Shown here in pieces: positions 4,841-40,012 of a DNA stretch of 64,000 nucleotides. A program made the translations under genes and the position numbers. A model generated the notes under the pieces. It did no database searches. It worked only from the letters and a program-made list of their open reading frames with translations, and was not told the DNA's origin. Source of the stretch: an uncultured Collinsella sp. (lineage in GTDB: Bacteria; Actinomycetota; Coriobacteriia; Coriobacteriales; Coriobacteriaceae); contig CAKTWK010000003.1 in NCBI GenBank assembly GCA_934630735.1, positions 33,874 through 97,873 on the forward strand, written 5' to 3'. Numbering within the stretch: position 1 is the stretch's first letter; every line of letters begins with the position of its first letter.

Positions 4841-4929
4841 GGAATCACCTCTCTTGGGGCGGCCGCCCTACGGGGCGGCTTCACGTTGTTCGAGAAGTAT
4901 TGTTGCCAGCTTTGTACGATCTTATACAC

Positions 4930-4956
4930 AAATCTAAGTCTCTATATATAAGATTT
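4930..4956 (-). promoter_or_regulatory. Candidate HspR operator at the clpB promoter
   Basis: An imperfect inverted repeat, AAATCTAAGT then (after a short spacer) ATATAAGATTT. The same 27-bp layout occurs upstream of dnaK at 14149-14175, with only the spacer and flanks changed. On the minus strand it abuts a TATAAG -10-like hexamer. It is not the classic HAIR sequence of Streptomyces, so assignment to HspR rests on gene content and on being shared by exactly the two expected targets. Confidence 0.6.
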
Positions 4957-4979
4957 TCTGAGTGCTCCCACGACATGCA

Positions 4980-5016
4980 AACCACCACAAAGGGGACAGG
5001 CACCTTTGTGGTGGTT
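4980..5016. repeat. ACCACCACAAAGG inverted repeat, copy 1
   Basis: Arms AACCACCACAAAGG and its complement enclose GGGACAGGCAC. This is one of five copies in the window (also 5785, 6653, 6853, 51321). It lies just past the stop codon of the following minus-strand gene. Confidence 0.85.
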
Positions 5017-5023
5017 GCAGCCT

Positions 5024-5695
5024 CTATTTACTTGCCGAGCCCGTGCTTCCCGATTCGGCGTTCCAGGGCATCTCATCCTCGAACAGCCATGTACGGGCAG
5101 ACCCACTATCGCGTGCAGTCTGCGGGTCGGGCAAGCAGGTCTGTTCATAGGCATCCTGAATGCACTGACCCATGAAATCGTTGAGCTCGGTCTGGTTGCC
5201 CTCCATGACATAGGCGACATCGCCGTCCAAGATGTAGATGCCCGGCCCCTCATTGCCCTCGTAGCCAGGATCGTACAAAACATCACATAACTTGGCGCCA
5301 TTCACGGTGTCCAACTCGATGGACGAGTGACATCCGCCAACCATGTCGTTCGCTTTTGCCCGATAGGACGCATATCCATACCAGCGCTTAAAGGTTTTGC
5401 CCCTGATCAGCTCGGACGCCCTGTCGATCAGACTAGAATCCGTGGTATAGCGCATAGCCCCAAGCTGAATATGTGGATAATTACTAATGCCCAGCGCAGC
5501 CGGTTGCTCATCAAAATCAACGGTAATGGTCTCAGGCTTGTCGTCGCCGGTCAGAAGTTCGACAGATTGAGTCACAGGCTTGACCACCGGCTCCGTCACC
5601 GCAGCAGGTAGAAACGCCATGCCGACAGCGCCCATGCCAACCACGGTGATCGCAAGCGCCAAGACAATCAATCCAATACGGGCAGAACGGCTCAC
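5024..5695 (-). CDS. Signal-anchored extracytoplasmic protein, unknown
   Basis: 223 residues from a GTG (MSRSARIGLIVL) preceded by GGGGTG. A GTG 13 codons upstream (5734) is possible but lacks a ribosome-binding site. One hydrophobic N-terminal helix (about 7-28) is followed by an extracytoplasmic part with four cysteines (GGCHSS, AKLCDV, GQCIQD, EQTCLP) that could form disulphides. No lipobox, catalytic motif or known domain is visible. The next gene (5930-6598, opposite strand) has a similar size and layout, but I could not align the two convincingly. Confidence 0.7.
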   Translation of the reverse strand: MSRSARIGLIVLALAITVVGMGAVGMAFLPAAVTEPVVKPVTQSVELLTGDDKPETITVDFDEQPAALGISNYPHIQLGAMRYTTDSSLIDRASELIRGKTFKRWYGYASYRAKANDMVGGCHSSIELDTVNGAKLCDVLYDPGYEGNEGPGIYILDGDVAYVMEGNQTELNDFMGQCIQDAYEQTCLPDPQTARDSGSARTWLFEDEMPWNAESGSTGSASK

Positions 5696-14971: not shown

Positions 14972-15517
14972 CTAGGACAAATCATCCTCGTAGGGCATCA
15001 GGTCTGCCAGATAGCCTTTCTCCTTGAGTATGGCCTCGATCTCGTCGAGGGTTTGCTCGTCATCTGCCGCAATGCGATGGAAGTGATAGCCACTCGTCAC
15101 CGTTAATAGCGGAAAGCTCTTGCCACTCTCGATATCGTGTAGGTAGCGCTCGACGTCGCGACGATTGCGGATGTCCAGGTCGGCTGTGATCTTACCGTAC
15201 ACGCGGTGGTTGACGATCACGTTGAGCACGGCGCCGCCCGCGTCGACGATGCTCGTGAGCTCATCGCCCGCCTGCTCCACGCCGTGGCGTACCTTGACCA
15301 GACGCGTGGGCACAGCCGGGCTGCTCGCTGCCTCCTGTAGCACATAGCCGCGATTGGTGGCGACAATATCGTGCCCGTCGGCGCGCAGCAGGGCGATGTC
15401 CTGCACCACAACCTGACGGCTCACGCCCACCTCGCGGGCAAGCGCACTGCCCGAGACAGGATCTTTGACTTCCTCGAGCACGGCCATGATGGAACGGCGA
15501 CGCTCGCGGGCGTCCAT
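14972..15517 (-). CDS. niaR: NAD biosynthesis repressor NiaR
   Basis: 181 residues. N-terminal winged HTH (about 8-58: SGSALAREVGVSRQVVVQDI) and a C-terminal 3H ligand domain with conserved histidines (VRHGVEQ, VNHRVYG, YLHDIES, YHFHRI). NiaR proteins repress NAD synthesis and niacin uptake genes when nicotinic acid is bound. It is the last gene of nadA-nadB-nadC-niaR; its ATG overlaps the nadC stop (TAATG), so it is translationally coupled and would be autoregulated with the operon. The probable target is the 44-bp palindrome in the nadA promoter (18881-18924). Confidence 0.92.
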   Translation of the reverse strand: MDARERRRSIMAVLEEVKDPVSGSALAREVGVSRQVVVQDIALLRADGHDIVATNRGYVLQEAASSPAVPTRLVKVRHGVEQAGDELTSIVDAGGAVLNVIVNHRVYGKITADLDIRNRRDVERYLHDIESGKSFPLLTVTSGYHFHRIAADDEQTLDEIEAILKEKGYLADLMPYEDDLS

Positions 15518-16377
15518 TATTTACCGTCCAGTAGACGCAGGTGCTTAAGCGAGAGGTCGAGGATCGGCGCAGAGTGCGTCAGAGCGCCCGAACTAATATA
15601 GTCAACACCCAGGTCGGCCAGGGCGCGAATGTTGTCGGCGTCTACGTTGCCCGAGCACTCGGTCTTGGCACGACCGGCGATAAGCTCAATCGCAGTAGCC
15701 ATGTCATCGTGGGTCATGTTGTCGAACATGATGATGTCGGCACCGGCCTCCACGGCCTCGCGTACCATGTCCAGGTTCTCGCACTCAATCTCGACCGTCG
15801 TGGTAAACGACGCATGGGCGCGCGCCATCTCAATCGCGCGCGCCACGCCACCGGCGGCGTCGATGTGGTTGTCCTTGAGCATGACAGCCGTCGACAGGTT
15901 ATAGCGGTGGTTGCTGCCACCGCCGATCTCGACTGCGGCCTTCTCGAAGACACGCATGCCCGGCGTGGTCTTGCGCGTGTCGACAAGCACGGTCTTGGTA
16001 CCCTCGAGCGCAGCCGCCATCCGATGCGTGTAAGTAGCGATGCCGCTCATGCGCTGCAGGTAGTTGAGCGCCACGCGCTCGCCCGAAAGCAGCACGCGCG
16101 CGTCGCCGCGCACCTGGCCCACGTGATCGCCGGCGTGCACCTCGTCGCCATCCGAGACATCGAACAACACGGAGCTCTGCGGATCCAGCAGCTCAAAGGT
16201 GCGGGCGAATACGTCCAGGCCGGCGATAATGCCATCGGCCTTGGCGATGAGCTCAACGGTAGCGGGGCGCGCCGTGGGGCACACGCTCGCCGTACTCACG
16301 TCCTCAAACGTGATGTCCTCGCGCAGAGCCTGCAAAATCAGATCATCGACGACGAGCTTCATGGTAATGGGATTCAT
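15517..16377 (-). CDS. nadC: Quinolinate phosphoribosyltransferase (carboxylating) NadC
   Basis: 286 residues. Converts quinolinate plus PRPP to nicotinate mononucleotide, CO2 and pyrophosphate, the third step of de novo NAD synthesis. Typical QPRTase features: N-terminal alpha/beta sandwich, then an alpha/beta barrel with LNYLQRMSGIAT, the DTRKTTPGMR motif, the GGGSNHRYNLS active-site loop and a Lys/Glu-rich barrel end (VEIECENLD, IMFDNM). It starts 3 bases downstream of the nadB stop and overlaps niaR by one base. Confidence 0.97.
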   Translation of the reverse strand: MNPITMKLVVDDLILQALREDITFEDVSTASVCPTARPATVELIAKADGIIAGLDVFARTFELLDPQSSVLFDVSDGDEVHAGDHVGQVRGDARVLLSGERVALNYLQRMSGIATYTHRMAAALEGTKTVLVDTRKTTPGMRVFEKAAVEIGGGSNHRYNLSTAVMLKDNHIDAAGGVARAIEMARAHASFTTTVEIECENLDMVREAVEAGADIIMFDNMTHDDMATAIELIAGRAKTECSGNVDADNIRALADLGVDYISSGALTHSAPILDLSLKHLRLLDGK

Positions 16378-16380
16378 GGT

Positions 16381-17757
16381 CTACTCCTCCACGGCCTGCG
16401 TGCCGGCGGCACGGGCCAAATCATCGATTGCAAGGGTATCGGCACTCAGGGCGCGGTGACGCCCGTCAAGCGCGGGCTCACCGGCCTGCTCCACGGCCAG
16501 CGACTCGCCGGTGCGCATGTACCACGCGGCACGGCGGCCCCAAACCAGAGACTCGAGCAGGCTGTTAGAAGCCAGGCGGTTCTTTCCGTGCACGCCATTG
16601 CAGGCCGTCTCGCCGGCGGCGTAGAGTTCGGGCATCGAAGTGCGGCCGTCCTTGTCGACCCATACGCCGCCCATAAAGTAGTGCTGCGTGGGTGTGACGG
16701 GAATGGGCTCGTCCAAGATGTCGCGGCCGTCCTCCAGGCAGCGTGCGCGGATATTGGCAAAGTGCCCGGTCACCACGTCGCGCTCGACGGGAGCAAAGCT
16801 CAGCCACTCGTGCTCGGTGCCGTCCTGCTTCATCTGCTCGCGAATAGCGGCGGCGACCACATCGCGCGGCTGAAGCTCATCGGTAAAGCGCTCGCCGGCG
16901 GCGTTGAGCAAAATCGCGCCCTCGCCGCGGCAGCTTTCGCTGATCAGGAAGGTGCGGCCCGGCTGCGGCGAGAACAGGCCCGTGGGGTGGATCTGCACGT
17001 AGTCCAAGTGCTCCATCGTGATGCCGTGCCCCTGCGCGATGTAGCAGGCGTCACCGGTGAGCTGCGGGTAGTTGGTCGAGTGGTCGTACACGCCACCAAT
17101 GCCGCCCGTCGCCCACAGCGTGTGGCGGGCATGGATCTTAAACAGCTTACCGGCATGCACGTCCTCAGCGGCATTTGCCAGCTCGTCGGCGGGGCGAGCT
17201 GAATCGTCCTCATCCACGGCAACGGCGACGACGCCGGTGCACACCGTGGCGCCATCGCGCTCGACGGTCAGGATGTCGGTCATGGCCACGTGTTCGAGAA
17301 TCTGCACGTTGTCCAGTTTGCGGACAGCCTGGAGCAGTTTGGTCGTAATCTCCTTGCCCGTAATATCGGCGTGGAAGGCGATGCGTGGGCGGCTGTGCGC
17401 GCCCTCGCGGGTAAAGTCGAGGCTGCCGTCAGCCTTGCGCTCAAAGTCCACGCCCATGGCCAGCAGGTCGTTGATGACCGAACGGCTCGAGCGAATCATG
17501 ATGTCAACACTCTCGCGGCGGTTCTCGTAATGGCCGGCGTGCATGGTGTCCTCAAAGAAGGCATCGTAGTCAGAACCCTCGGGCAGCACGCAGATGCCGC
17601 CCTGCGCGAGCATCGAATCGCACTCATCGACGGCGCCCTTGGAGAGCATGATCACGCGCGTGCTCGTCGGCAGATTGAGAGCCGCATACAGGCCTGCCAC
17701 GCCGCAACCGGCAATGACGACGTCACATTCCATATCGGGGTATTGTTTGGTTTCCAC
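16381..17757 (-). CDS. nadB: L-aspartate oxidase NadB
   Basis: 458 residues from a GTG (VETKQYPDMECDVVIAG) that follows GGGAGAGG; the longer frame to 17802 would start inside the nadA-nadB hairpin. FAD flavoprotein oxidising L-aspartate to iminoaspartate, which NadA uses. It has the dinucleotide fold GCGVAGLYAAL, the succinate-dehydrogenase-like SMLAQGGI and the active-site region HPTGLF with RGEGAILLN. It is somewhat shorter than E. coli NadB (540), missing much of the C-terminal helical domain, as in several Gram-positives. In anaerobes fumarate is the likely electron acceptor. Second gene of the operon. Confidence 0.95.
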   Translation of the reverse strand: METKQYPDMECDVVIAGCGVAGLYAALNLPTSTRVIMLSKGAVDECDSMLAQGGICVLPEGSDYDAFFEDTMHAGHYENRRESVDIMIRSSRSVINDLLAMGVDFERKADGSLDFTREGAHSRPRIAFHADITGKEITTKLLQAVRKLDNVQILEHVAMTDILTVERDGATVCTGVVAVAVDEDDSARPADELANAAEDVHAGKLFKIHARHTLWATGGIGGVYDHSTNYPQLTGDACYIAQGHGITMEHLDYVQIHPTGLFSPQPGRTFLISESCRGEGAILLNAAGERFTDELQPRDVVAAAIREQMKQDGTEHEWLSFAPVERDVVTGHFANIRARCLEDGRDILDEPIPVTPTQHYFMGGVWVDKDGRTSMPELYAAGETACNGVHGKNRLASNSLLESLVWGRRAAWYMRTGESLAVEQAGEPALDGRHRALSADTLAIDDLARAAGTQAVEE

Positions 17758-17771
17758 AGGAATCCTCTCCC

Positions 17772-17815
17772 TTGTAATGTGGCATAAGGGACCGTCCCTC
17801 ATGCCGCATTGTTCT
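17772..17815. repeat. nadA-nadB intercistronic hairpin
   Basis: Imperfect arms AATGTGGCATAAGGGA and TCCCTCATGCCGCATT, in the gap between nadA and nadB. There is no T-run; it may tune expression of nadB or be a small repetitive palindrome. Confidence 0.6.
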
Positions 17816-18839
17816 AGCGCGCTGCGTACTCGAGCATGCGGTCGAGCGTGAGCTTGGCCTGATCGGCAGCCTCGTCCGACACGCCAATCTGCACCTCGCC
17901 CTCGCCCGTCTCCAGGCAGTGCACGAGCTTTTCGAGCGTGATGAGATCCATGTTGACGCAGGTGGGCTGCACCGCAGGGAAGTAGAACTTCTTGCCGGTG
18001 CCCTGGCAGCGGCGCTCAAGCTCGTAGAGCACGCCGCGGACCGTCACGATGATGAACTCGCTCGCGTCCGACTCCTCGGCATACTTGATGATGCCGGCAG
18101 TGGAGCCGATGTAGTCGGCCTCGGCCAGGACGTCGGCCTTGCACTCGGGGTGCGCCAGCACGAGTGCGTCGGGGTGCGCCTCCTGCGCGTCGACGATCTG
18201 CTCGACGGTGATGATGTGATGACGCGGGCAGTAGCCGTTGTTGAGGATGACGTGCTTTTGGGGCACCTGCTCAGCCACAAAGCGGCCCAGGTTCTGGTCG
18301 GGAATGAACAAGATGTGCTGCTGCGGCAGCTCGGAGACGATCTTGACGGCGTTGGAGCTGGTGACGCACACGTCACTCCAGCTCTTGATCTCAACCGTCG
18401 AGTTGACGTAGCAGACGACAGCTAGGTCGTCGCCATACTCGGCGCGCGCCGCGTCGACCGTCTCGCGCTTGACCATGTGCGCCATGGGACAGTCCGCGCC
18501 CGGCTCGGGCAGCAGCACAGTCTTGGTGGGATTGAGCAGCTTGGCGCTCTCGCCCATAAACTCCACGCCGCACAGCACGATAGTCTGCTGCGGCAGGCTC
18601 TTGGCGAGCTTTGCCAGGTAGAAGCTGTCGCCGACGAAATCGGCAACGGCTTGGACCTCAGGCGCCACATAGTAGTGCGCCAGGATCACCGCGTCACGTT
18701 GGGTTTTTAGTTGCTGAATGGCCTCGACGAGCTCTGCGGGCACCAGTGCCGCGCGCTCCGTTGCCGTCGTTGCCGATGCCAGGCCGGCCGCGATATCGCG
18801 TGCAAGCTCCGACGCATCCATGTTCGCGCTCTGTGCCAT
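17814..18839 (-). CDS. nadA: Quinolinate synthase NadA
   Basis: 341 residues. Condenses iminoaspartate with dihydroxyacetone phosphate to quinolinate on an oxygen-sensitive [4Fe-4S] cluster. Three-fold repeated NadA architecture with likely cluster cysteines in VLCGVEFMGE, HPECKAD and VQPTCVNM, the catalytic HYY (AVILAHYYV) and NSTVEIK. The ATG at 18839 follows GAGAGGGG; a TTG codon just upstream is not needed. First gene of the nadABC-niaR operon, with its promoter and operator at 18875-18924. Confidence 0.97.
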   Translation of the reverse strand: MAQSANMDASELARDIAAGLASATTATERAALVPAELVEAIQQLKTQRDAVILAHYYVAPEVQAVADFVGDSFYLAKLAKSLPQQTIVLCGVEFMGESAKLLNPTKTVLLPEPGADCPMAHMVKRETVDAARAEYGDDLAVVCYVNSTVEIKSWSDVCVTSSNAVKIVSELPQQHILFIPDQNLGRFVAEQVPQKHVILNNGYCPRHHIITVEQIVDAQEAHPDALVLAHPECKADVLAEADYIGSTAGIIKYAEESDASEFIIVTVRGVLYELERRCQGTGKKFYFPAVQPTCVNMDLITLEKLVHCLETGEGEVQIGVSDEAADQAKLTLDRMLEYAAR

Positions 18840-18874
18840 CAAGGCCCCTCTCTTTTGGCGAATCTTGGGGCTTT

Positions 18875-19324: not shown

Positions 19325-22300
19325 TTAAGCGCGGCGCTTCATGGCCCAGGCCAGCAGCAGAGCTGCCACACCGGCAGCGAGTACGGCACCAGCCATGGCG
19401 TACATGCTATCGCCGGACTCAGGCAACGCCTCCTTGCCAGCCTTCTTCTTAGGCTTGGAAGTCGTAGTCGTGGTCGTAGCGGTCTGGCCAGGAGTGGGCT
19501 TGGCAGCCTCGGCGACCGTAAAGGTCGTCTCGGCCGTGCCCGTGGCCGAAACCACGCTCAGCTTGTGTTCGCCCACGCCAAGTGTCTTTAGGAAGCTCGC
19601 CTTGAGCGTCACGATCGTAGAGCCCTCGGTGAGCACGTAGTTCTCGGCGGCGACCTCCTTGTCGTCGACCAGCACCTTCTGGAAGTACCTGATCGGCGCG
19701 CTCGAGCGGAAGGTCAGGTCCTTGGCTGCCTCGACCACCATCGTCTGACCCTTGCCGTCGGTGATCTCGGGCGCCAGAATCGCGATCTCCTCAGTCTTGC
19801 CCTTCTCGTGGCAGACGGTGCACTCCTGATGCTTCTCACCCTTGGCCTCGACAGTCGCCGGCCAGTCGACGACCCACTCAAAGGTGTGCTCCGCCTTGTC
19901 GATGATGTCGCCGCAGCGGCAGACATGCCAATGATTCTTGGCATCGTGCGCCCAGCCCGTGCCGTCGGGCTCGTGCTTGAGGACACCCTCGACCGTCACA
20001 TTCACGTCGTCCTCGACATCCTTGAGCTCATAGGTGCCCTTGTCGGAGAGCTCGATGGCCTTACCATCGACCTTGACGGCGTAGCCCTTGCCCGCAAAGT
20101 ACGCGCTGTCGATGCTCACGGTAAGCGTTGCGGAGCCGTGCCAGTCGAGCTCGGTTGCCGTCGCGGTAAGCGTGTAGCCCTGCTGGTTAGTCGGCAGCGC
20201 CACGACCAGCTTGCGGCCGGCAGCCACGGTGATCTCGGTAACAGAGGAAACATCGTAGTTGGCCTTAGCCTGGTAGCGAACCTCGTACACACCGGCGGCG
20301 AGATCCTTGAGCTCGGTCACGCCCTCGCCCACGGCCTGGTACTCGGCGGCACCCTTGGCGCGCCACTCCATCGTCGCGTTGACGCCCGCGATCTTACCGT
20401 CACGCCTGCCGCTCACGGTCTCGGCCTCGGCCTGGACCTTCGGCGCGTCCTGGGCGGCGTTCTTGATGGAGAACCCACACGTCAGACCTTCAGTCGGAAG
20501 CGCGTAGTTGCCCGCGGCCTTACCCGTCAGCGCTGTGAGGGTCGCCTGATACGAATCGCCGGCCTCGACCTGGGAGCCCTCGACGGTCGCACCAAGGTCA
20601 TCCTTGTCGATGACGTTGCCGAGCGTTGCCTCGGGGCAGTGCTCCTTGCCGTCGTAGACAAACTCTCTGGTACCCCACGTCACGGTGAGCGGGCGCTGGT
20701 TGATGGTGAACACGCCATCGACGAACGTGATGTTGTAGTTGGGGTTTGCACCCTCGGGCTGCGTCAGCTGCAGAGCATAGCCGCCGTCGCGCACGTTGTC
20801 GTTATTTTCGCGCTCGATCTCGAGGCCCTGAAGCGTTTCGCCCGCGACGAGTTTGCCAGAAGTGACATCCCACGTAAACACGGGGTCAGCCTCGCCGTAG
20901 GTCTTAGAAGCGTCCTGGGCGGTGACCGTAATCGCGCACGGCTTGACCTCGAGCTCAACCTTGCCCTCGGCGGTCGCACCGTCAATCGTCACCTTGTAGG
21001 CGACGATCAGTTTGCCGACGTCCTTAATCTTGGGGGCCTCGGGGGACCAATTCTTGCCGTCGGTGCTGTACTGAGCCGTTGCGCCCTCGGGTAGTCTCGT
21101 CGCATCGACCGTGTGATACGCACCGTCGTACTCGTCGGAGTAGCCAACGATGGCGGCAGTCGGAATCTCGACTGCAGGCAACGCATGCCCACAAACCGTG
21201 CACTGCTGATGCTTGGAGCCCACCTCGGTTGCCGTGGGTGCCTTGTCGACAACCCACTCAAAGGTGTGCGCAGTCTCGTCGATCTTCTCGCCGCAGGTGC
21301 ACTGATGCCAGTGCGCGCTGTCGTCGGAGAACCACTGGTCGTTCACAGCCTCGTGCTTGCGCACACCCTCGACCGTCACGTTCACGTCGCTCTCGGCGTC
21401 TTTGATCTTATATGTACCGTTGTCTGCAAGCTCGACCTTCTCGCCGTTAACCTTGACGGCAAACTTCTTTCCATCGGTGAAGTAGTTCGAGTCGAGCGAG
21501 AACGAAAGCGTCGCGGAGCCATGCCAGTCGAGCTCGGTCGCGTCAGTCGTGAGCGTGTAGCCCGTCTGCTCGGCCGGCAGCGTCACCTTGAGCTTGCGGC
21601 CAGCATCGACCGTAACGGTAACGGTCTTGGAAGCGTTGTAATTCGTCGTCGCTCCGTAGCACAAACGGTATGAACCGGGCGCTAGATTCTCAAGCTTGTC
21701 GCCATCGACCAAATCGCTCTCTTTGATAAACATCATCTGCGCGCGAGGTTTGCCCAGCTGCATCGACGTATCGACGCCCTCGAGCTTACCGTCGTGTTTA
21801 CCACTCACGGTCTCCGCCGTCGCCTTTACCTCAGGAGCGCTTTCCCTATCGGCCTTGGCAATAACGTACTTGCACTCGATGCCCAAAGGCTTACTGTAAT
21901 TAGCGAGAACCTTATCCTCACCGACGAGCTTGCTCAACTTCGCTGTATACGAGCCAGCATTTACTTTTGCGGCATCCACAACTTTGAGAGACACGTCGTC
22001 GTTGTTAACCAGATTGGTAATCTCTGCCGTGGGACCCTGTTCTTGGCCGTTGTAAACGTACCAATCGACCGTCCATCTCACCTCGACAACGCGGCGCTTA
22101 ATGGTGAAATCGCCCGCCTCAAACGTAATGTCATAGTTAGCGTTGGCGCCCTCTTTCTGAGAAGCCGTCACCTTGTACGTCTTATAACCGGTCAGAACAT
22201 TCTCGCCCTCATCACGTTTGTACGTAATATCAGAAAGCGTATCGCCCTCCATAAGAGAGCCGGCCGTCACTTCATAGGTAAAGTCGGGATCCGGGTCGCC

Positions 22301-25300
22301 ATACGTTTTAGATGCGGCAGCAGGCGCCACCGTGATCGCAAGCGGCGTCACCTCGAGCGTCACCTGCCCATTGATGTCGGAAGCACCAGGGGTGGTCACC
22401 TTATAGTCGACAGTGGTCTTGCCGACGTTTTTGATTGTGGGAGCATCCGTTTTCCACGTGACGCCACCGTCGATGCTGAACTGAGCCGTCGCGCCATCCT
22501 TAAGGTCCACGCTCACGGCATGCTCGTTGCCGTCATACACGCCGACATAACCGCCGATGCACGCCGGAGGAATCTCCTCCTCGCGCAGGACATAGCCGCA
22601 CGTGGAGCATTGATACCGCTTTAGACCGGGCTTCTCGGTGGTGGGAGCCTTAACTTCCTCCCAAGAGAAGACATGCGTGTCTTCGTTGAGCTTCTTGCCG
22701 CATCGACACACCTGCCAGTGAGCGCCATTCGAACCCTCGGTCTTATACCAAGTACCGTCAGCGGACGCGCAAGGGCCCTCCGCAATTTCGAAGACGTTAG
22801 CCCCCGAAGCGTAGTGGTTATTGTCCGCTTTGAAGCGCACCTCATACTTCCCGGCAGGCAGTCCATCGACCGAAGTTTTACCGGCACCGATGGACTCCCA
22901 GTATGTGTCCCCGTATTTTCTCCACTCATAGGTCTTATTCAAGTTGGAGAGCGACCCATCCTCGAGCAAATGCGCACTTTGGCCCTTGACCTTGACACCT
23001 GTGCCTTCGCTAGCGATATAACGCCAAGGAACAGACTGGCCGGCCGGCGTAATCTTGATTTCAACCGACCCGCTCTTTGTCACATAGTCTTTCGCGGTGA
23101 TGCGGTAATCGACCGTTACGGAGCAGATCTCGCCCTTACGGTTACGCTGAACGTCCGTATAGCTCTTCGCCTCCGTTGTCCAGCTGTCGCCCTCATCAAA
23201 GCTGTACTCGATCGTCATGTCGGCAGGGGCATTTGACACCGAAATGTTGACGCCGTGAGGCTGTCCGTCGTAGACGCCCTCGAATCCCTCTGCCGTCACG
23301 TTCTCAAACTGCGTACCTGTGATAGTCCAATTTGCATATGCTGAGCCCGTATAGTTACCCGTGCCCTTGATATAGACCTGATAGTACGGGAAGTAGGAAT
23401 TGGAGCCGGGAGGATCGATCGCGCTCACCGTGCTATACGACGAATCACTATCAATCTTGTAGTCACCGCCCTTGACAAAGGATGACCAGCTCTGAGTGCT
23501 GTAGTTGTAAACCTCAACGGAAAAATTGGGCGTAATCGTCTTTCCCGTCCATGAGTACGCGCGAACTGCCTCACCATTAATCGTGGTGTCTGTTCCGCCG
23601 TCATTAAACTTGAACGTGAGTCCGCTGACATTGCGCAAATCGAGCGGCAAAATCTGGAACTCGCGGGTGAGCGTCAGGTCACTTTCCTGGCCATCAACCT
23701 TAACTTTGGACTCGATACGGTAAATTCCCGCATCGGTAGGAACTTTTTCCAGTGGCTCGCCCGCGTCGTCGCCCCACTTCGAAAGCTTGTAATACTGAGA
23801 CCCGGAGATACGTACGCCTCCCGTCGAGACGATATCGTCTCGAGCGTAGCCGTCCTTATTCGACATCATCAGCGTTGGAGTGACTTCTCCGCCGCTGTAT
23901 GTAACGCCAAGCTTTCCCTTATCCTGCGTCGCCCCGTCGATGCCCAGCTCGACGGCATAGCCATTTTTGTAGCTGCAATCGCTCGGGCGCATCTTGCCGG
24001 AGCAGGTGACCTTCAGCTGATATGAGCTGTTGGCAGCCTTTTCCACCGACCACACATGTTCATGCGGCAGGCGCGAGGCGTACACATATCCGTCGTCTGT
24101 CCTTCCGATGCCAACGCTCGGGTCGTCCGTAGTAACACGAGCGCGCAGGTCGCTCTCTTCGATGCCGCAGGTGCCAAGCTTCCACTGCGTGCCCGCATAG
24201 GCGCCCAGCTGATCGTCCTTGAGCGACAGCTGGACCTTACCCGTGAAGGTGTCGGCAATGTTCAGTTTGCCGTAGTAATTAATCCCCGGCGTGTCAAGCG
24301 CAAGGCCTCGGGCGCTCTTCTCTCCGTTAGTTGTAATGGTCGTATTGCCAGCAAGCGTCACCGTTCCGCGGGCATACACAGTGTTTCGACGCGTGTTCGC
24401 ATCGGAATGGTAGTACGTGCCCTCTGCATAAGTGTCGCTCACCTGCGTATTGTTGAGCGTGCATGTCGAATTTTTAGCCACCGCAATTGCGCTCGTCATA
24501 ACCATATCTTGCGTATAGTTCGCCGCTTCTTGCGTCGATGTGATGGTGCAACCGTTCAGTGCTACGTCCGCATTATTGACAACAATGTTGCCGGCATGGG
24601 TATGCTCATTTTTATCCTGCACGTTAAGTTCTTTACACCAGATCGATTCTTGTTGATTGTTCTTGAAGGTGCAGTTGTTGAGCACAACCTTGGGCCTGCA
24701 CCCACGGCCTACGACACTTAGCGCACCAGTGCAGTCATCTTCATTATCCGTAAATTCACAGTTGCTAAACGTGACGTCCAAACTCTTTGCACCGTTCGCC
24801 GAGCTGAGGATCGTAACCGGCGCCGGAGAGGCTTCATATTCTGTTGCGATGTTGCTGTACTTGTGACTGCTACCATAAGTCGCACCGTTCGGCGTGCAAT
24901 CCCATTTGCTGACCTTGATATTGTCGAAGGTTGCCGTTTCGCCATCGACCATCGTGCCGTACAGCGCAATTGGCCTTTTAGACACCCCTGAGGCTACCGT
25001 CTTAAACTCGATGCCGGAAACCTTAAGGTTCAGGCTGTTGGAGACCCTGTTTTTATCGGCGCCATCGCCGTAGCCGTCTCTTTTGCCGGCATTATCGGAC
25101 AAAAAGCTCTTGCCGTTGCAATAGACGGGAGTTCTGCCATTCCCGTTGGTTCCAATGAACTCAACATAGCCGCCGTCAAGCACAAAGAGCTCGTCGTAGC
25201 CGCGGTCTCTTTTGTCCTTAATAGAACCATTCCAGCGACCTTGACGTGCATTCTCGGTAAGGTATATACGCGTCGGATTTTGCTCGGTACCGCCCTTTAC

Positions 25301-25540
25301 GACGTAGTGGTTGATCTCGATCTCTCCTCCGACGACGTAATCCTCGCCCGCCTCGAGCGTCACCGTATCGGCAACGTAGGGGTTATTGCTTTTTGTTTGA
25401 GCAATCTTCGCGTTCGACGGAATATCCGCCGTTGTCGCCGCCCCAGCCACCGCTGGCGTCGCTACGAGTGCGCATGCTACGGTGGCGATGCCCAGCAGGC
25501 GCGTCAACACAGCGCGCATCCCCATCTTCTTCTCCCTCAT
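19325..25540 (-). CDS. Giant wall-anchored surface protein with beta-helix and MBG repeats
   Basis: 2071 residues from the ATG at 25540 (MREKKMGMRAV) after AAGGGGAG; the longer frame to 25750 lacks a start signal. Signal peptide at about 1-35 (cleavage after AGAA). The N-terminal ~500 residues look like a right-handed parallel beta-helix. Immunoglobulin-like MBG-type units follow, each containing SKTYGDPDPDF or SKTYGEADPVF. Three small Cys/His modules (HWHQCTCGE to CTVCGH, HWQVCRCGK to CSTCGY, HWHVCRCGD to CTVCHEKG) could each hold a zinc ion. The C-terminus has LPESG, a hydrophobic helix and KRRA: an LPxTG-like sortase signal. A likely adhesin or glycan-binding protein on the cell wall. It is divergent from the LytTR pair, which may regulate it. 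Substrate unknown. Confidence 0.88.
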   Translation of the reverse strand: MREKKMGMRAVLTRLLGIATVACALVATPAVAGAATTADIPSNAKIAQTKSNNPYVADTVTLEAGEDYVVGGEIEINHYVVKGGTEQNPTRIYLTENARQGRWNGSIKDKRDRGYDELFVLDGGYVEFIGTNGNGRTPVYCNGKSFLSDNAGKRDGYGDGADKNRVSNSLNLKVSGIEFKTVASGVSKRPIALYGTMVDGETATFDNIKVSKWDCTPNGATYGSSHKYSNIATEYEASPAPVTILSSANGAKSLDVTFSNCEFTDNEDDCTGALSVVGRGCRPKVVLNNCTFKNNQQESIWCKELNVQDKNEHTHAGNIVVNNADVALNGCTITSTQEAANYTQDMVMTSAIAVAKNSTCTLNNTQVSDTYAEGTYYHSDANTRRNTVYARGTVTLAGNTTITTNGEKSARGLALDTPGINYYGKLNIADTFTGKVQLSLKDDQLGAYAGTQWKLGTCGIEESDLRARVTTDDPSVGIGRTDDGYVYASRLPHEHVWSVEKAANSSYQLKVTCSGKMRPSDCSYKNGYAVELGIDGATQDKGKLGVTYSGGEVTPTLMMSNKDGYARDDIVSTGGVRISGSQYYKLSKWGDDAGEPLEKVPTDAGIYRIESKVKVDGQESDLTLTREFQILPLDLRNVSGLTFKFNDGGTDTTINGEAVRAYSWTGKTITPNFSVEVYNYSTQSWSSFVKGGDYKIDSDSSYSTVSAIDPPGSNSYFPYYQVYIKGTGNYTGSAYANWTITGTQFENVTAEGFEGVYDGQPHGVNISVSNAPADMTIEYSFDEGDSWTTEAKSYTDVQRNRKGEICSVTVDYRITAKDYVTKSGSVEIKITPAGQSVPWRYIASEGTGVKVKGQSAHLLEDGSLSNLNKTYEWRKYGDTYWESIGAGKTSVDGLPAGKYEVRFKADNNHYASGANVFEIAEGPCASADGTWYKTEGSNGAHWQVCRCGKKLNEDTHVFSWEEVKAPTTEKPGLKRYQCSTCGYVLREEEIPPACIGGYVGVYDGNEHAVSVDLKDGATAQFSIDGGVTWKTDAPTIKNVGKTTVDYKVTTPGASDINGQVTLEVTPLAITVAPAAASKTYGDPDPDFTYEVTAGSLMEGDTLSDITYKRDEGENVLTGYKTYKVTASQKEGANANYDITFEAGDFTIKRRVVEVRWTVDWYVYNGQEQGPTAEITNLVNNDDVSLKVVDAAKVNAGSYTAKLSKLVGEDKVLANYSKPLGIECKYVIAKADRESAPEVKATAETVSGKHDGKLEGVDTSMQLGKPRAQMMFIKESDLVDGDKLENLAPGSYRLCYGATTNYNASKTVTVTVDAGRKLKVTLPAEQTGYTLTTDATELDWHGSATLSFSLDSNYFTDGKKFAVKVNGEKVELADNGTYKIKDAESDVNVTVEGVRKHEAVNDQWFSDDSAHWHQCTCGEKIDETAHTFEWVVDKAPTATEVGSKHQQCTVCGHALPAVEIPTAAIVGYSDEYDGAYHTVDATRLPEGATAQYSTDGKNWSPEAPKIKDVGKLIVAYKVTIDGATAEGKVELEVKPCAITVTAQDASKTYGEADPVFTWDVTSGKLVAGETLQGLEIERENNDNVRDGGYALQLTQPEGANPNYNITFVDGVFTINQRPLTVTWGTREFVYDGKEHCPEATLGNVIDKDDLGATVEGSQVEAGDSYQATLTALTGKAAGNYALPTEGLTCGFSIKNAAQDAPKVQAEAETVSGRRDGKIAGVNATMEWRAKGAAEYQAVGEGVTELKDLAAGVYEVRYQAKANYDVSSVTEITVAAGRKLVVALPTNQQGYTLTATATELDWHGSATLTVSIDSAYFAGKGYAVKVDGKAIELSDKGTYELKDVEDDVNVTVEGVLKHEPDGTGWAHDAKNHWHVCRCGDIIDKAEHTFEWVVDWPATVEAKGEKHQECTVCHEKGKTEEIAILAPEITDGKGQTMVVEAAKDLTFRSSAPIRYFQKVLVDDKEVAAENYVLTEGSTIVTLKASFLKTLGVGEHKLSVVSATGTAETTFTVAEAAKPTPGQTATTTTTTSKPKKKAGKEALPESGDSMYAMAGAVLAAGVAALLLAWAMKRRA

Positions 25541-25591
25541 CGTTTCGCTCCCCTTACCCCTATGCTTTCGCGATGACCGCCATCGCTTGGC

Positions 25592-25628
25592 GCCGGCGGT
25601 CGGTCTGATTCCCCGTCCGACCGCCGGC
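25592..25628 (-). promoter_or_regulatory. Hairpin in the giant gene leader
   Basis: GCCGGCGGTCGG and its complement (12-bp stem, 13-base loop), about 50 bases upstream of the start codon on the minus strand, in the shared region with the LytTR gene. It could be an mRNA-stabilising leader or an operator. Confidence 0.45.
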
Positions 25629-25785
25629 ATCGATTGATATGTGTATCCATGGAGTATTGTGAGGTCACCAAAACTGACACCCCGCCGCTCGGCGCGAGTT
25701 GCGTACCGTGGGGCGCAAATGGAACGCACCCCCGCGGGCGGCGCGTGCACGATGTGGCAAAATCGAGGTACTAAGGGGGCCCAAT

Positions 25786-35142: not shown

Positions 35143-38100
35143 CTACGCCGCGCGGCGTTTGGTGTAGACAAACCAGCCGCCGACGGCCCCGATACCGACG
35201 ATGCCCACGGCAACGCCAGCGATAGCAAAGCCGTTTGAACCCGCGTCCGCAGCCTTGTTGGCGGCGCCGGCGCTCAACACGGCGGTCTTGCCGGACGTGC
35301 CCGACTTTTTGGCGCTCTTGTCTGTCTTACCGGCGACGGAAGACTCCGTCGAATCCTTCTTGCCGGATTCAGTCTCGACCTTGGAATCACCAGCTGCCTT
35401 GGCGCCCTCGCTCGAGGAAGCACCGGCCATCTTGGCGGCCACAGGAGCCATTACGCCCGCAAAACCGGCGGTCCCGTTGCCGGCACCGCCGTCCGACCCG
35501 GCACCCGGCGTCAGGACGCCCGGCGCCACCGTGGGCTTCTGCGGGTCCTTGCTGCTCGAGCCCTTGCCCGCCGTCACGGCCGTCTTCCAGGCAATCGTCT
35601 CTCCCGAGGAGACACGATACGTCGTGAGCGCGCGGAGCGCCTGCTCGGTCGCCATGGCGTTGGCCGCGCCGCCCTTGCTGTGCGCATAGCCGTTGCCGCC
35701 GTCCACGCGGTACAGGTCCAGCGCGCAGACCACGTTGGTCACGGCATTTGCAAACCCGTTAACGGGGTTGGCCGGGTCACGGTCGAGCGAAAGCAGCGCG
35801 AGGATCACCTGGGCATTGGCCTCGGCAGAACCGAAATCACAGGTACCCGCGCTCATCTTGCCCTTGAGGTAGGAGAGGCCGTTCTCGATGGCAGCATCGA
35901 CCTTGGTGTCGCCCTCATAGGGCGCCACGGCCTGGATCGCCATGGCCGTCAGGTCCACGTCGCCCAGACGCGTACCCTCCACGGCGTCGTCGCTGCCGAG
36001 AAGCTCGCAGACAGCGTCCGCGAGACTCGCGCGCGTCCAGGCAGAACCGGCGGGTACATCCGATCCGCTCGCATTAAGCGCCATCAGCGCAAAGATCTTC
36101 TCGTTGGCGCGCGTCATATCGGTGCGGCTGCAGATGAGCTCGACCAGGTTGACGCCGTCATAGTCGGTGATGTCCTCGCCGATGGCGGAGAGGGCCAGCG
36201 CCACACGCTCGGTCTCAGTCAGAGCGCAGGTCGCACTCCCCCACTCGGCCTTGTGCTCGGCCAGCGAGGCGCGGTAGTTGTCGAGCAGCTTGGAATCGAT
36301 CTTGCGGCCCGCCTTGGCAAAGTCGTAGATCTCCCACTCGTCGCCGTACTGGAAGGCGTCGGAGCTGCGGCGCACGTCGATGAACGCAGCGGCAGCATCG
36401 ATGCCCGCCGAGGCGGACTCACTCGTGGCGGGGCTCGCGGCCACACCGGCCACGGTGATGGTAAGCGTCACGGGCTCGGCACCGGCGGTCGTGTCCACCG
36501 GCGTACCCGTCGCGACCACCGTGCCGGCCGAAAGCGCAGTCACCGTATAGTCACTCGAGGCCACGTACAGGCCGTCATCGGGAGCGCCGTCGACGTGCTT
36601 CCAGGCGCCCTTCTCGATGCGGTCGATGCCCACGATACCCGAGGCGTCCTTGCCGTCGAGTGTCTTGAACGTCCAGGTGAGGCCGGGCTCGGTCACGCTC
36701 CAGCCGTCCGCGTCGTTTTTACCGGTAAAGGTCAGGTCGAGCTTTTGCGCCGAGCCGGCCTTGAGGTAGAGGCTGTCCGTGCCGGCCGTCACGCTCGCAA
36801 GCGGATTTTGGTAAGCATAAGTCACGTCGCACGACGCGCTGATGACCTTGCCATCGGCGTCCGTGTCGGGCAGCGTCGCGGTAAACGTGGTGGTGCCAGC
36901 CTTGTACGCCGTGTAGCCGATCTCGCCCGCGGTGGCGTAGGCCGCCACGGCAGGATCGCTGCTCGTCACGGTAAAGTTATCGCGGTTGGTGGCGTTGTCG
37001 GGCGCCACCACCGGGCGTGCGTGATCGGTCAAAAACGCGCCGCGCTCGGAGAGCGGGTTGCGGCCCTGCAGGTAGACGGTGGCGCCGTCCTCGTTATAGC
37101 CCATCGAGATGGACGTGGCGGCCACGGCTTCTGACGTCAGCGTCACGCTCTTGGAGCCAGCGCCCGCAGATGCGACGTCGCGCGGGGTAACGGTGATCGT
37201 GGCACTGCCGGCATGCTTGAAGTAAAAGCAGGCCGAGTAGTCGTTGCTGTAGATGGTCGTAGAATCGCTCGAAGCAAAGTGGAAGCGGCTGAACGAAACG
37301 GGCACGTACTTGTCCTTATCGGCGTCGACGTAATGCACGCGCACCTCGAGGTTGCGCACCTCGGAGCCCTGGACGGTAGCCGCGCCATCGGTCACGTCGC
37401 TCACGGTGCCGTCGGAGGCACGATACCACAGCTCAAAGTCATCGAACTGTTTGGCCTTGGCCTTGATCTTGATGGTGGCCACGGTCTGCTCGGAACCATT
37501 GGCCTTATGCTCGGTGGCGGTCACCGTGCCGATGGCGTTGTCGTAGATGTAGAGCTCGCCCGTGGACTCGTTGATACCGATGTTGCCGCGGTTGGCGTCA
37601 TCGGTGCCCCAGGTGATGGTGCTCGTGGCCGGGACGCCCTTAAGTGCAAAGACGCCAAGTTTGCGGTAGGCGTTCACAGCGTCGGGCGAAACCTCGAGCA
37701 TATGGTCGGCAACTGTCTGGCTGGTGCCGTCGTTGGCCGTGAAGCTCACGGTGTAGGCGTCGTCGGGCGTGGTGTCCTCGGGTGCCTGGTAGCTGTTGCC
37801 CGAGCCAAAGACCGGCGTGCCATTTTTATCGATACCCCAGCTGCTGCCGTTGGCGCCGCAGTTGGCGTTGATGAGATCGGCGAAGGCATCGGTGGCCATG
37901 TCGGCGGGGTCGACGGCATAGGAGTTGACGAGCGCCGAGGCGGGAGCGTCCATCTTGTTGGTGAGGAATGCGCCCCAGTAGGTGTTGACGAGCTGGCCCG
38001 CGCTATAGGTCGCGAACAGCGCGCCCGCTGTGCCCTCGGAGGTCGACACGCAGTTGGACACGATGCCGCCGTCGAGCGTACGCGCAAAGCCCGCGACGCC

Positions 38101-39696
38101 CTTGCCGGTCACACTCGTGGAGCAGTTGAGCACGGCACCCTGAACCTTGTTGCCCAGGGGGCCGAACGCCTTGCCGTCCGTCGCTTGCTTCAGTTTGCCG
38201 GCAAACGAGATGTTCTGCACCACGCCCGTGGAGACAACGCCGTCCATGAGCGACTTCACGCCGCCGCCGTTGGCGAAGGTGATGGTGTGGCCCTGGCCGT
38301 CGAGTGTGCCCGCAAGTATGCCCATGGGGGCAAAGAAGTACTCGTCATCGATGGTAATGTCGTTGTCGAGAACGTAATAGGCGTCGGCGTCGGCGGGTTT
38401 GAACTTGTTTTCGAGGTCGCTCTGCGAGCTCAGGTGCACTACATTCTGCGGCTGAGCCACGGGCTCGGTGGGCTTGGGCTTCTCGAGCGCGGCAATGGCA
38501 TCGGTGAGCGTCTTGGTTGCGGCGTTGACCTCGGCCTGCTTGGCGTCATCGTTGGCGTAGACGTCTTGAGCGCTCACAAGGGCCTCAGCGAGCTTCGACC
38601 AGCTCTCGGCCGTGTAGTCGTTCTCGATCTTGGCGTTGGCATCGTCAATCGCAGCCTTGAGGGCATCCTTGTTCACAACAGCCGCAGCGCCGCCCGAGAT
38701 CAGCACAGGCAAACCGCCCTGCGCAGACCAGGTAAAGCCGGTGGCAGGGGCATCGGTGTTGAGCTTATCGACCGAGGCCTGGGTCTTGAGGTCGTCGACA
38801 GAGATTTTGTTGCCAAAGGAAGAATCGACCTTGTAGCCGCACGCCTGATCGCCCGCAGTGAACAGATTGTTGGTCACGGTGCCAGACTGATACCAGGCAA
38901 CGAGGCCGTAACCGCCAAAGGGCATGCCGCTGAGGCTGCCGGCGTAATACGAGTTGAGCACCGAACCGCCATCGAGCTTGCCTACAAGACCGGCAGCGTC
39001 AGCGAAAGTCCAATTGTCGTCAGAGGGGCTTGCCGTCGACCAGCACATTTGCACGGTACCCGAGCATGTGGTGGCGATAGGACCGTCGGTGCCAGAAATC
39101 GTCATCGAACCCGTCACGCCCAGATTCTGTACCGTACCAGCCACGCTCTTCGCCAGCGCCTTGCCGTTGAGCACGATGCTGTGGCCCTGGCCATCGAGCG
39201 TACCGGCCACGGTCTCGATCTGTTGGCCAGCCTCAAGGCTGATATTCGCCGCGAGCTTCACGACAGCCCCGGCCTCGATGGTGGTGGGCAGCTCATCGGC
39301 AAAAGAGACCATCACGGTCTCGCCGGCCTTGGCGACGCGCGCGCCGCGTGTCTGCTGAGCATCGGCATCCTCGTCGTCGACGTCCGCCGCGGCGGCATTC
39401 TGCCCGTTCGCACCCAGCACGGCGGCAAGCCCCTCATCGGCAGACGGAGCAACGTCGGATCTTGCCTCGTCCGCCGACGCCTCGGCGCCTTCAACACCCG
39501 TCCGCTCGTCCGCAGTGAAACTCGACTCGTCGGCATTCTCGGCAGCATCCGCCTGCTGCGAGGCCTGGGTCTGCGCCTGCACAGCGATCTCTGCCACGCC
39601 CTCGGCAAATGCCGACGTACCCGGCATCGACCAGACGAGCAGCACCGAGAAAGCAGCGGCTCCCAGGCGCTTGAGCATAATGTTGTTTCGCGTCAC
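35143..39696 (-). CDS. Cobalamin-riboswitch-controlled surface protein with alpha/alpha-toroid
   Basis: 1517 residues from a GTG (VTRNNIMLKRLG) after GAAGGAGAACGG; the frame to 39849 runs into the riboswitch. Signal peptide about 1-31. Order: acidic Ala-rich stretch; beta-helix-like GLUG/right-handed repeats (TLDGQGHSIVLNG, TLDGQGHTITFAN); a FIVAR-like helical module between them (ALKAAIDDANAKIENDYT); several Ig-like beta domains; then at about 1150-1400 a helical region with VDLTAMAIQAVAPY, SAEANAQVILALLSL and NAMATEQALRALTTY, which matches the prenyltransferase-type toroid of intrinsic-factor-like bacterial proteins. Ser/Lys/Ala-rich stalk and a C-terminal TM helix with KRRAA; no LPxTG. Proposed role: capture of corrinoids, based on the toroid plus the riboswitch. 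A DUF4430 partner domain is not obvious. Confidence 0.85.
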   Translation of the reverse strand: MTRNNIMLKRLGAAAFSVLLVWSMPGTSAFAEGVAEIAVQAQTQASQQADAAENADESSFTADERTGVEGAEASADEARSDVAPSADEGLAAVLGANGQNAAAADVDDEDADAQQTRGARVAKAGETVMVSFADELPTTIEAGAVVKLAANISLEAGQQIETVAGTLDGQGHSIVLNGKALAKSVAGTVQNLGVTGSMTISGTDGPIATTCSGTVQMCWSTASPSDDNWTFADAAGLVGKLDGGSVLNSYYAGSLSGMPFGGYGLVAWYQSGTVTNNLFTAGDQACGYKVDSSFGNKISVDDLKTQASVDKLNTDAPATGFTWSAQGGLPVLISGGAAAVVNKDALKAAIDDANAKIENDYTAESWSKLAEALVSAQDVYANDDAKQAEVNAATKTLTDAIAALEKPKPTEPVAQPQNVVHLSSQSDLENKFKPADADAYYVLDNDITIDDEYFFAPMGILAGTLDGQGHTITFANGGGVKSLMDGVVSTGVVQNISFAGKLKQATDGKAFGPLGNKVQGAVLNCSTSVTGKGVAGFARTLDGGIVSNCVSTSEGTAGALFATYSAGQLVNTYWGAFLTNKMDAPASALVNSYAVDPADMATDAFADLINANCGANGSSWGIDKNGTPVFGSGNSYQAPEDTTPDDAYTVSFTANDGTSQTVADHMLEVSPDAVNAYRKLGVFALKGVPATSTITWGTDDANRGNIGINESTGELYIYDNAIGTVTATEHKANGSEQTVATIKIKAKAKQFDDFELWYRASDGTVSDVTDGAATVQGSEVRNLEVRVHYVDADKDKYVPVSFSRFHFASSDSTTIYSNDYSACFYFKHAGSATITVTPRDVASAGAGSKSVTLTSEAVAATSISMGYNEDGATVYLQGRNPLSERGAFLTDHARPVVAPDNATNRDNFTVTSSDPAVAAYATAGEIGYTAYKAGTTTFTATLPDTDADGKVISASCDVTYAYQNPLASVTAGTDSLYLKAGSAQKLDLTFTGKNDADGWSVTEPGLTWTFKTLDGKDASGIVGIDRIEKGAWKHVDGAPDDGLYVASSDYTVTALSAGTVVATGTPVDTTAGAEPVTLTITVAGVAASPATSESASAGIDAAAAFIDVRRSSDAFQYGDEWEIYDFAKAGRKIDSKLLDNYRASLAEHKAEWGSATCALTETERVALALSAIGEDITDYDGVNLVELICSRTDMTRANEKIFALMALNASGSDVPAGSAWTRASLADAVCELLGSDDAVEGTRLGDVDLTAMAIQAVAPYEGDTKVDAAIENGLSYLKGKMSAGTCDFGSAEANAQVILALLSLDRDPANPVNGFANAVTNVVCALDLYRVDGGNGYAHSKGGAANAMATEQALRALTTYRVSSGETIAWKTAVTAGKGSSSKDPQKPTVAPGVLTPGAGSDGGAGNGTAGFAGVMAPVAAKMAGASSSEGAKAAGDSKVETESGKKDSTESSVAGKTDKSAKKSGTSGKTAVLSAGAANKAADAGSNGFAIAGVAVGIVGIGAVGGWFVYTKRRAA

Positions 39697-39703
39697 CCGT
39701 TCT

Positions 39704-39744
39704 CCTTCTTTCGCGAACCTGCAATAGAGCCATGGCGAAGAAGG
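39704..39744 (-). promoter_or_regulatory. Shine-Dalgarno-sequestering hairpin of the riboswitch
   Basis: In the mRNA CCTTCTTCGC pairs with GCGAAAGAAGG (one bulge), and the second strand contains the AAGG of the ribosome-binding site of the GTG start. This would be an expression platform controlling translation. Confidence 0.5.
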
Positions 39745-39877
39745 CGGGAGAGGCGATACCCCGGCAGCACAAAGGCGCACGTCAGCCACCCTATCGGCAG
39801 CAAAACGCACGCTCAGCAGCACCCCTTGTAGACCGGAATCCAGCGGCAAACAGAGAGGCCCTCGGTTTCGAGAAGAG

Positions 39878-40012
39878 CGCGGGCAGGTAATCTGGCTCGC
39901 GGGCGCGCCCGCACACAGTAACCGCCTTGCTCGGGATTCTCACCCGATTCCCCTTTATGCGCTCGCGCGCACCCGTGCTCCGGCTTCTATTTTTTAACGG
40001 AGGAAGTGTACG
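39878..40012 (-). ncRNA. Cobalamin riboswitch aptamer
   Basis: On the minus strand the conserved cobalamin core is readable in order: GGTGCGCGCGAGCGCA (P3 hairpin), AAAGGGGAATCGGGTG, AGAATCCCGAGC, GGCGGTTACTGTG, then a short hairpin (TGCGGGCGCGCCCGC) and GAGCCAGATTACCTGCCCG (B12 box complement). The short insert between ACTGTG and GAGCCAGA suggests a compact class-II-type aptamer. It precedes the toroid surface-protein gene by about 180 bases. Confidence 0.9.

Follow-up and report, generated by a model that had tools for sequence, protein, structure and literature searches.

Burroughs et al. (2007; PMC1796856) predicted that Gram-positive bacteria scavenge vitamin B12 with surface proteins that carry alpha/alpha toroid and SLBB (DUF4430) domains. 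In the systems set out in the text of that study, SLBB is fused to toroid, FIVAR, Ig-like or propeller domains, operons include CbiO/CbiQ genes, and animals are proposed to have acquired their own proteins from such bacteria; the word riboswitch is absent from its main text. The gene considered here lies on a 64,000-nucleotide stretch of DNA from an uncultured Collinsella sp. (contig CAKTWK010000003.1; the window, meaning this stretch at its full length) and encodes a 1517-residue protein behind a cobalamin riboswitch. This protein is likely to act as a surface receptor in corrinoid (vitamin B12) scavenging, under the control of the riboswitch. It probably serves as a hook that catches B12 outside the cell, because its ring-shaped domain resembles one half of the human B12 carrier and because a B12 sensor RNA precedes the gene.

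As far as the text of PMC1796856 describes them, the predicted systems share with the window protein export (here judged by eye), a multidomain build with FIVAR and Ig-like domains, an alpha/alpha toroid and a proposed role in B12 scavenging, and they share CbiO/CbiQ-type ABC genes with the related toroid operons treated below. The window protein differs in that its toroid stands alone under a cobalamin riboswitch of its own in an actinobacterium, with DUF4430 and energy-coupling factor (ECF) transporter genes at other loci. Neither an SLBB domain in the same protein or operon nor a CbiO/CbiQ-type transporter in the operon was found at the window locus, where both neighbours lie on the opposite strand. 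Proteins of this kind are already predicted in PMC1796856, but the text covered here shows none that has a toroid alone, is preceded by a riboswitch of its own and leaves the DUF4430 half to another locus.

Animal intrinsic factor, haptocorrin and transcobalamin have the alpha/alpha toroid in common with the window protein. They differ from it in carrying a beta-domain on the same chain and in being soluble, whereas the window protein is membrane-tailed (by eye), and its sequence similarity to transcobalamin is marginal. ECF-CbrT (6FNP), described in PMC5997447 as a membrane importer, is homologous to the S-component of a close Collinsella relative that carries the toroid gene; the window protein would act earlier, at the surface. 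According to the parts of PMC6143338 and PMC8941943 that bear on them, BtuG and BtuH of Bacteroides are likewise surface B12-binding proteins in riboswitch-bearing transport loci, although BtuG is a seven-bladed propeller and both come from Gram-negative Bacteroidetes; they are regarded here as analogues rather than relatives. No description of the window protein was found in the open-licence literature on DUF4430, transcobalamin-like bacterial proteins or Collinsella cobalamin riboswitches. The text of a riboswitch-regulon survey (PMC3766115) contains no transcobalamin, squalene or prenyltransferase genes, and its supplementary gene tables may list toroid genes.

The riboswitch and the gene it precedes

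The match to the cobalamin riboswitch family RF00174 is the only Rfam match above the gathering score in the whole window. It lies on the same strand as the 1517-residue gene and 5' of it, with 168 bases between the aptamer and the GTG start at 39696. The open frame spans 35143-39849 on the minus strand from a TTG; the GTG is preferred as start and, together with the GAAGGAG at 39708-39702, yields the 1517 residues given in the preliminary description. The features of the locus are as follows.

35143..39696, minus strand: exported, membrane-tailed surface protein of 1517 residues (open reading frame; predicted from sequence)
39865..39991, minus strand: cobalamin riboswitch aptamer RF00174, compact form (cmscan 48.1 bits, cut-off 31.5, E 5.8e-9)
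39704..39744, minus strand: hairpin that may mask the Shine-Dalgarno sequence, a candidate expression platform (minimum free energy -23.7 kcal/mol for 39690-39755)
39702..39708, minus strand: Shine-Dalgarno sequence GAAGGAG, 5 bases ahead of the GTG start (read from sequence)
39601..39696, minus strand: predicted signal peptide, residues ~1-32 (by eye: basic N-terminus, hydrophobic core, AFA-E site)
38692..39345, minus strand: beta-helix domain 1, residues 118-335
38482..38670, minus strand: FIVAR domain, residues 343-405 (PF07554, 29.7 bits, cut-off 29.2; helices in the model)
37801..38445, minus strand: second beta-helix-like stretch, residues ~418-632 (strand pattern of the AlphaFold2 model)
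36448..37752, minus strand: array of Ig-like beta-sandwich domains (stalk), residues ~649-1083
35563..36411, minus strand: alpha/alpha toroid domain, residues 1096-1378 (AlphaFold2 model, toroid folds of the PDB)
35146..35232, minus strand: C-terminal transmembrane tail with KRRAA end (sequence by eye; no LPXTG seen)

The search with the Rfam cobalamin model thus bears out the aptamer reported earlier, at a position 13-21 bases away from the 39878-40012 first assigned to it. The score is 46.8-48.2 bits in the leaders of three Collinsella loci (L001-L003). Among the 43 genomes of the genus, RF00174 passes its cut-off in three (G001, G042 and G044), and in each of them solely ahead of this gene. 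The folding free energy of the aptamer is ordinary (z-score -0.08; 88 of 200 shuffles equally good), and the aptamer call is based on the covariance model and on conservation, not on free energy. In the hairpin, CCTTCTTCGC pairs with GCGAAAGAAGG, beside and over the Shine-Dalgarno sequence, and its sequence is conserved in L001-L003. Masking of the Shine-Dalgarno sequence by this hairpin, as proposed initially, is plausible but unproven, because 18 of 200 dinucleotide shuffles of 39690-39755 are equally stable (z-score -1.4) and because the hairpin is not conserved in the diverged leader of genome G041, in which the Shine-Dalgarno region folds differently. A kissing loop between L5 and L13, for which possible complementarity was seen by eye in the window leader, was set aside since the loop of G041 offers no convincing pairing.

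Two other features were noted upstream of related riboswitches. A long inverted repeat at L026:927-1055 gives a spurious match to a microRNA family (MIR8670) on both strands, far under the cut-off. In L002, a 734-residue exported-looking protein (3139-5343) lies just upstream of the riboswitch; no such frame is listed near the window riboswitch.

Both neighbouring genes, hypE with other hydrogenase maturation genes (by eye) and a HAD phosphatase, are on the plus strand, so the 1517-residue gene appears to be transcribed alone. Orthologues with 97-98% identical proteins occur in three of 43 genomes of the genus (G001, G042, G044), and a 53% identical homologue in G041; the 97-98% identical copies are from uncultured Collinsella metagenome-assembled genomes. 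Compared as a whole, the protein gives no meaningful phmmer match in the PDB and, in NCBIfam, just a ZmpB match at the FIVAR domain, far under the cut-off. Weak tailspike and lyase alignments with a high root-mean-square deviation partly cover residues ~418-632; for residues 118-1095 the fold comparison leaves other folds possible, with ~596-748 barely covered. The DUF4430 surface protein of G042, G001 and G038 has a C-terminus similar to residues ~1398-1516 (35-43% identity).

The toroid domain

The AlphaFold2 model of the toroid has 12 helices and a high predicted confidence (predicted local distance difference test 87.3, predicted template modelling score 0.86), which agrees with the toroid anticipated from the sequence. 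The model matches toroid folds in the PDB, cyclases among them. The three motifs on which the preliminary description had relied were located at residues 1247-1260, 1291-1304 and 1348-1360, and D1248, T1250 and Q1352 are among the invariant columns of 17 aligned sequences. The comparison with intrinsic factor holds only for the alpha half, in that the window protein may work like the alpha half of intrinsic factor; by sequence the domain is nearer to squalene-hopene cyclases.

At E values up to 1, the Pfam search lists no PF01122 match for the window protein; four of 29 relatives match this family weakly (best E 0.015). Transcobalamin fragments score 2.1-5.5 bits against the toroid profiles, values reached by 0-7 of 1000 shuffles each; these scores are a hint and do not amount to a membership test, and one transcobalamin-toroid alignment has the motif out of register.

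Linkage of related toroids to cobalamin sensing and transport

Eight loci were picked by protein similarity alone, and all eight have a cobalamin riboswitch above threshold. Three are from Collinsella (L001-L003) and are not independent of G001, G042 and G044. The other five, from two Clostridia metagenome-assembled genomes, Bacillus sp. FJAT-27264, Clostridium tagluense and Caryophanon latum, show a riboswitch followed by large toroid and/or DUF4430 surface proteins, a DUF4430 protein and ECF-type genes, the latter called by Pfam for CbiQ in L004 and for the S-component in L008 and otherwise judged by sequence and order. In one such operon, L007:1987-2934 encodes a protein with a single toroid and no DUF4430 match in Pfam.

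In the order to which Collinsella belongs, the toroid profile matches 40 of 297 genomes, four of which are the Collinsella carriers. Of the remaining 36, the 20 with the highest scores were examined over up to 7.5 kb surrounding their best toroid and extending upstream of it, nine of these regions being shortened by contig ends. Ten of the 20 have a same-strand upstream riboswitch of the cobalamin clan that exceeds the gathering score, one more has such a riboswitch downstream of the toroid, and G196, G262 and G057 have a weaker or farther upstream match; an earlier scan with 1.5 kb flanks, superseded by these longer regions, had found such riboswitches at 6/20 loci. Across the 20 genomes, 12 of the 44 RF00174 matches at E <=0.001 fall within the 114,155 bases of toroid region in ~49.6 Mb, where ~0.1 would be expected, and the association of the toroid family with cobalamin sensing is therefore beyond chance. 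In G059, two divergent cobalamin riboswitches lie ~140 bases apart ahead of a toroid gene (L105:550-1040, also L147).

This linkage to cobalamin riboswitches, DUF4430 and ECF-type genes supports the reading as corrinoid capture made from the window sequence, as does the CbrT-like ECF S-component of a close relative.

Candidate partner genes in Collinsella

Statements on partner genes come from relatives of the window genome, above all G001, G042 and G044. All four toroid carriers are among the 42 of 43 genus genomes in which DUF4430 occurs. G042, G044 and others have it in a giant surface protein and a smaller protein, at a locus separate from the toroid gene; in G001 this locus runs off the contig. 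Giant proteins of this type lie at L090:8587-15918, L099:6955-14229 and L096:8597-12535, all on the minus strand; DUF4430 stretches number three in the protein of G042 and four in that of G023. In G042, G038, G023, G012 and G044, the leader of this gene shares a core resembling that of a cobalamin riboswitch, which scores as AdoCbl-II 30.5 bits in G044 and 29.1 in G023, under the cut-off of 36.5. In both G042 and G044 the toroid profile matches only once, at the counterpart of the window's gene. Homology to BtuG is not claimed for the propeller-like region of this second surface protein, since it matches only BamB, weakly (G042, E 0.014).

The ECF query matched in all 43 genus genomes and, among the matches listed, its S-component part in 42. 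The sole genome without DUF4430, G047, is also without a listed S-component match and carries CbiC, a gene of B12 synthesis; this hints at a joint occurrence of DUF4430 and the Collinsella ECF. The S-component of G044 matches the ECF-CbrT structure (6fnp_A, E 2.9e-6) and shares 33-35% identity with its counterparts in the toroid operons of Caryophanon and Bacillus; NCBIfam gives it no name. A DUF4430 protein in G049 is immediately followed by a single frame of 1046 residues that joins ECF ATPases and S-component (L097:2495-6546). Long frames of a similar kind occur in G034, G008, G048 and G030, and those of G048 and G030 each contain one in-frame stop.

No BtuF-type Peripla_BP_2 protein was found in G001, G042 or G044, each of which encodes a single B12-binding protein whose length is MetH-like. 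Of the 43 genomes, 17 have CbiC, and the genus may therefore be divided into possible B12 makers and scavengers. The CbiC gene was not found in any of the four toroid carriers, which is not significant on its own because 26 of the 43 genomes are without it.

Weighing of the explanations

Several observations weigh against a corrinoid receptor with a DUF4430 partner and an ECF importer. The best sequence matches of the toroid profiles are squalene-hopene-cyclase-type chains (best E 4e-16 / 2e-18) and not transcobalamin, and the cyclase fold match is also slightly better. A beta-domain was not detected on the window protein: PF14478 gives no match up to E 1, the best DUF4430-profile score (-0.5 bits) is under that of the best shuffle (1.8), and no helix-containing beta-grasp is apparent in the model of residues 649-1095. 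For this reason the protein is not placed in the intrinsic factor family. The gene is present in only four of the 43 genomes, and the majority of the genus therefore does without it. Ahead of the 53% homologue of G041, the leader (L028) scores 25.7 bits for RF00174, under the cut-off, with the core sequence motifs kept; no cobalamin riboswitch match is listed at the DUF4430 locus of this genome (L094), and G041 does have BtuF-type proteins. The ECF operon of G044 and G001 is at a locus apart from the toroid gene, none being found beside it, the ECF loci of G044, G042 and G001 yielded no cobalamin riboswitch, and no similarity was detected between the S-components of L004 and Collinsella. G001, G042 and G044 each have a short MetE-like protein, so B12 may be non-essential. 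In the order-wide set, seven of 20 regions are without an upstream cobalamin riboswitch even when weak or far matches are allowed; six of these are shortened by contig ends, and one of the seven genomes, G108, has two other toroid-bearing contigs (C110, C183) with a riboswitch upstream on the same strand.

Some of these points would fit a toroid that needs no DUF4430 partner to bind corrinoid and forms a reservoir at the surface, merely concentrating ligand near the cell. The undetected beta-domain is in keeping with it, as are the apparently solitary transcription of the gene, its different surroundings in G041 (by eye) and the single-toroid protein of L007. Such a reservoir is nevertheless rather unlikely, given that the ligand of transcobalamin is sandwiched between two domains, as stated in the text of PMC1796856, and that DUF4430 is so widespread in the genus, all toroid carriers included.

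Adhesins often contain beta-helix, FIVAR and Ig-like domains. The window protein has all three, and complement-type TED domains are also toroids, from which an adhesin or glycan-binding surface protein might be read, with cobalamin merely an environmental cue for its expression. This is made improbable by the cobalamin riboswitches to which related toroids are linked, together with DUF4430 and ECF-type genes in Firmicutes, and the TED thioester motif CGEQ is absent from all 32 toroid domains compared, that of the window included, and from 71 of 71 relatives. An enzyme under cobalamin control, either terpene-cyclase-like or glycan-active, would account for the squalene-hopene-cyclase-type proteins being the best sequence and fold matches; sequence and structure searches show that some glycan enzymes share the fold, as TED domains do. 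Against this stand the export predicted by sequence, the linkage to riboswitches and transporters, and the motifs: the class II cyclase motif DxDD is absent from the same 32 domains and DxDD[TS]A from the 71 relatives (P0121-P0191). An enzymatic role is thus very improbable.

Other features of the window

A second very large protein of 2141 residues is encoded at 19325-25750 on the minus strand. It has MBG_2 domains and matches a beta-helix weakly, and Rfam shows no riboswitch for it. At 14972-18842, also on the minus strand, lies an NAD synthesis cluster of NadA, an FAD-binding protein, QRPTase and a 3H-domain regulator.

Proposed mechanism and implications

For the window protein as a corrinoid receptor, the following course may be proposed. 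At low intracellular cobalamin the leader would be freed and the gene switched on, OFF-type regulation being expected from the riboswitch class. The protein would then be exported and held by its C-terminal membrane tail, and its domain order suggests that the toroid is presented beyond the membrane on the Ig-like and beta-helix stalk. There the toroid would bind extracellular corrinoid, alone or with the DUF4430 domain of the separately encoded second surface protein, which would most likely close over the toroid-bound corrinoid as in transcobalamin. The corrinoid could be handed to the CbrT-like ECF transporter and end on the MetH-like enzyme.

A more specific version can be put forward only tentatively, namely that these Collinsella possess a two-piece intrinsic factor. 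Its alpha half would be the toroid and its beta half the DUF4430 part of the giant protein with the beta-propeller-like region; encoded at separate loci under cobalamin riboswitches of their own and bearing similar membrane tails, the two would close on the corrinoid in trans, ahead of the ECF-CbrT importer. The locus offers a receptor candidate, a sensor RNA, a likely partner and a likely importer in a common gut genus. If true, this would link animal intrinsic factor to relatives in present-day bacteria, where its halves are separate proteins.
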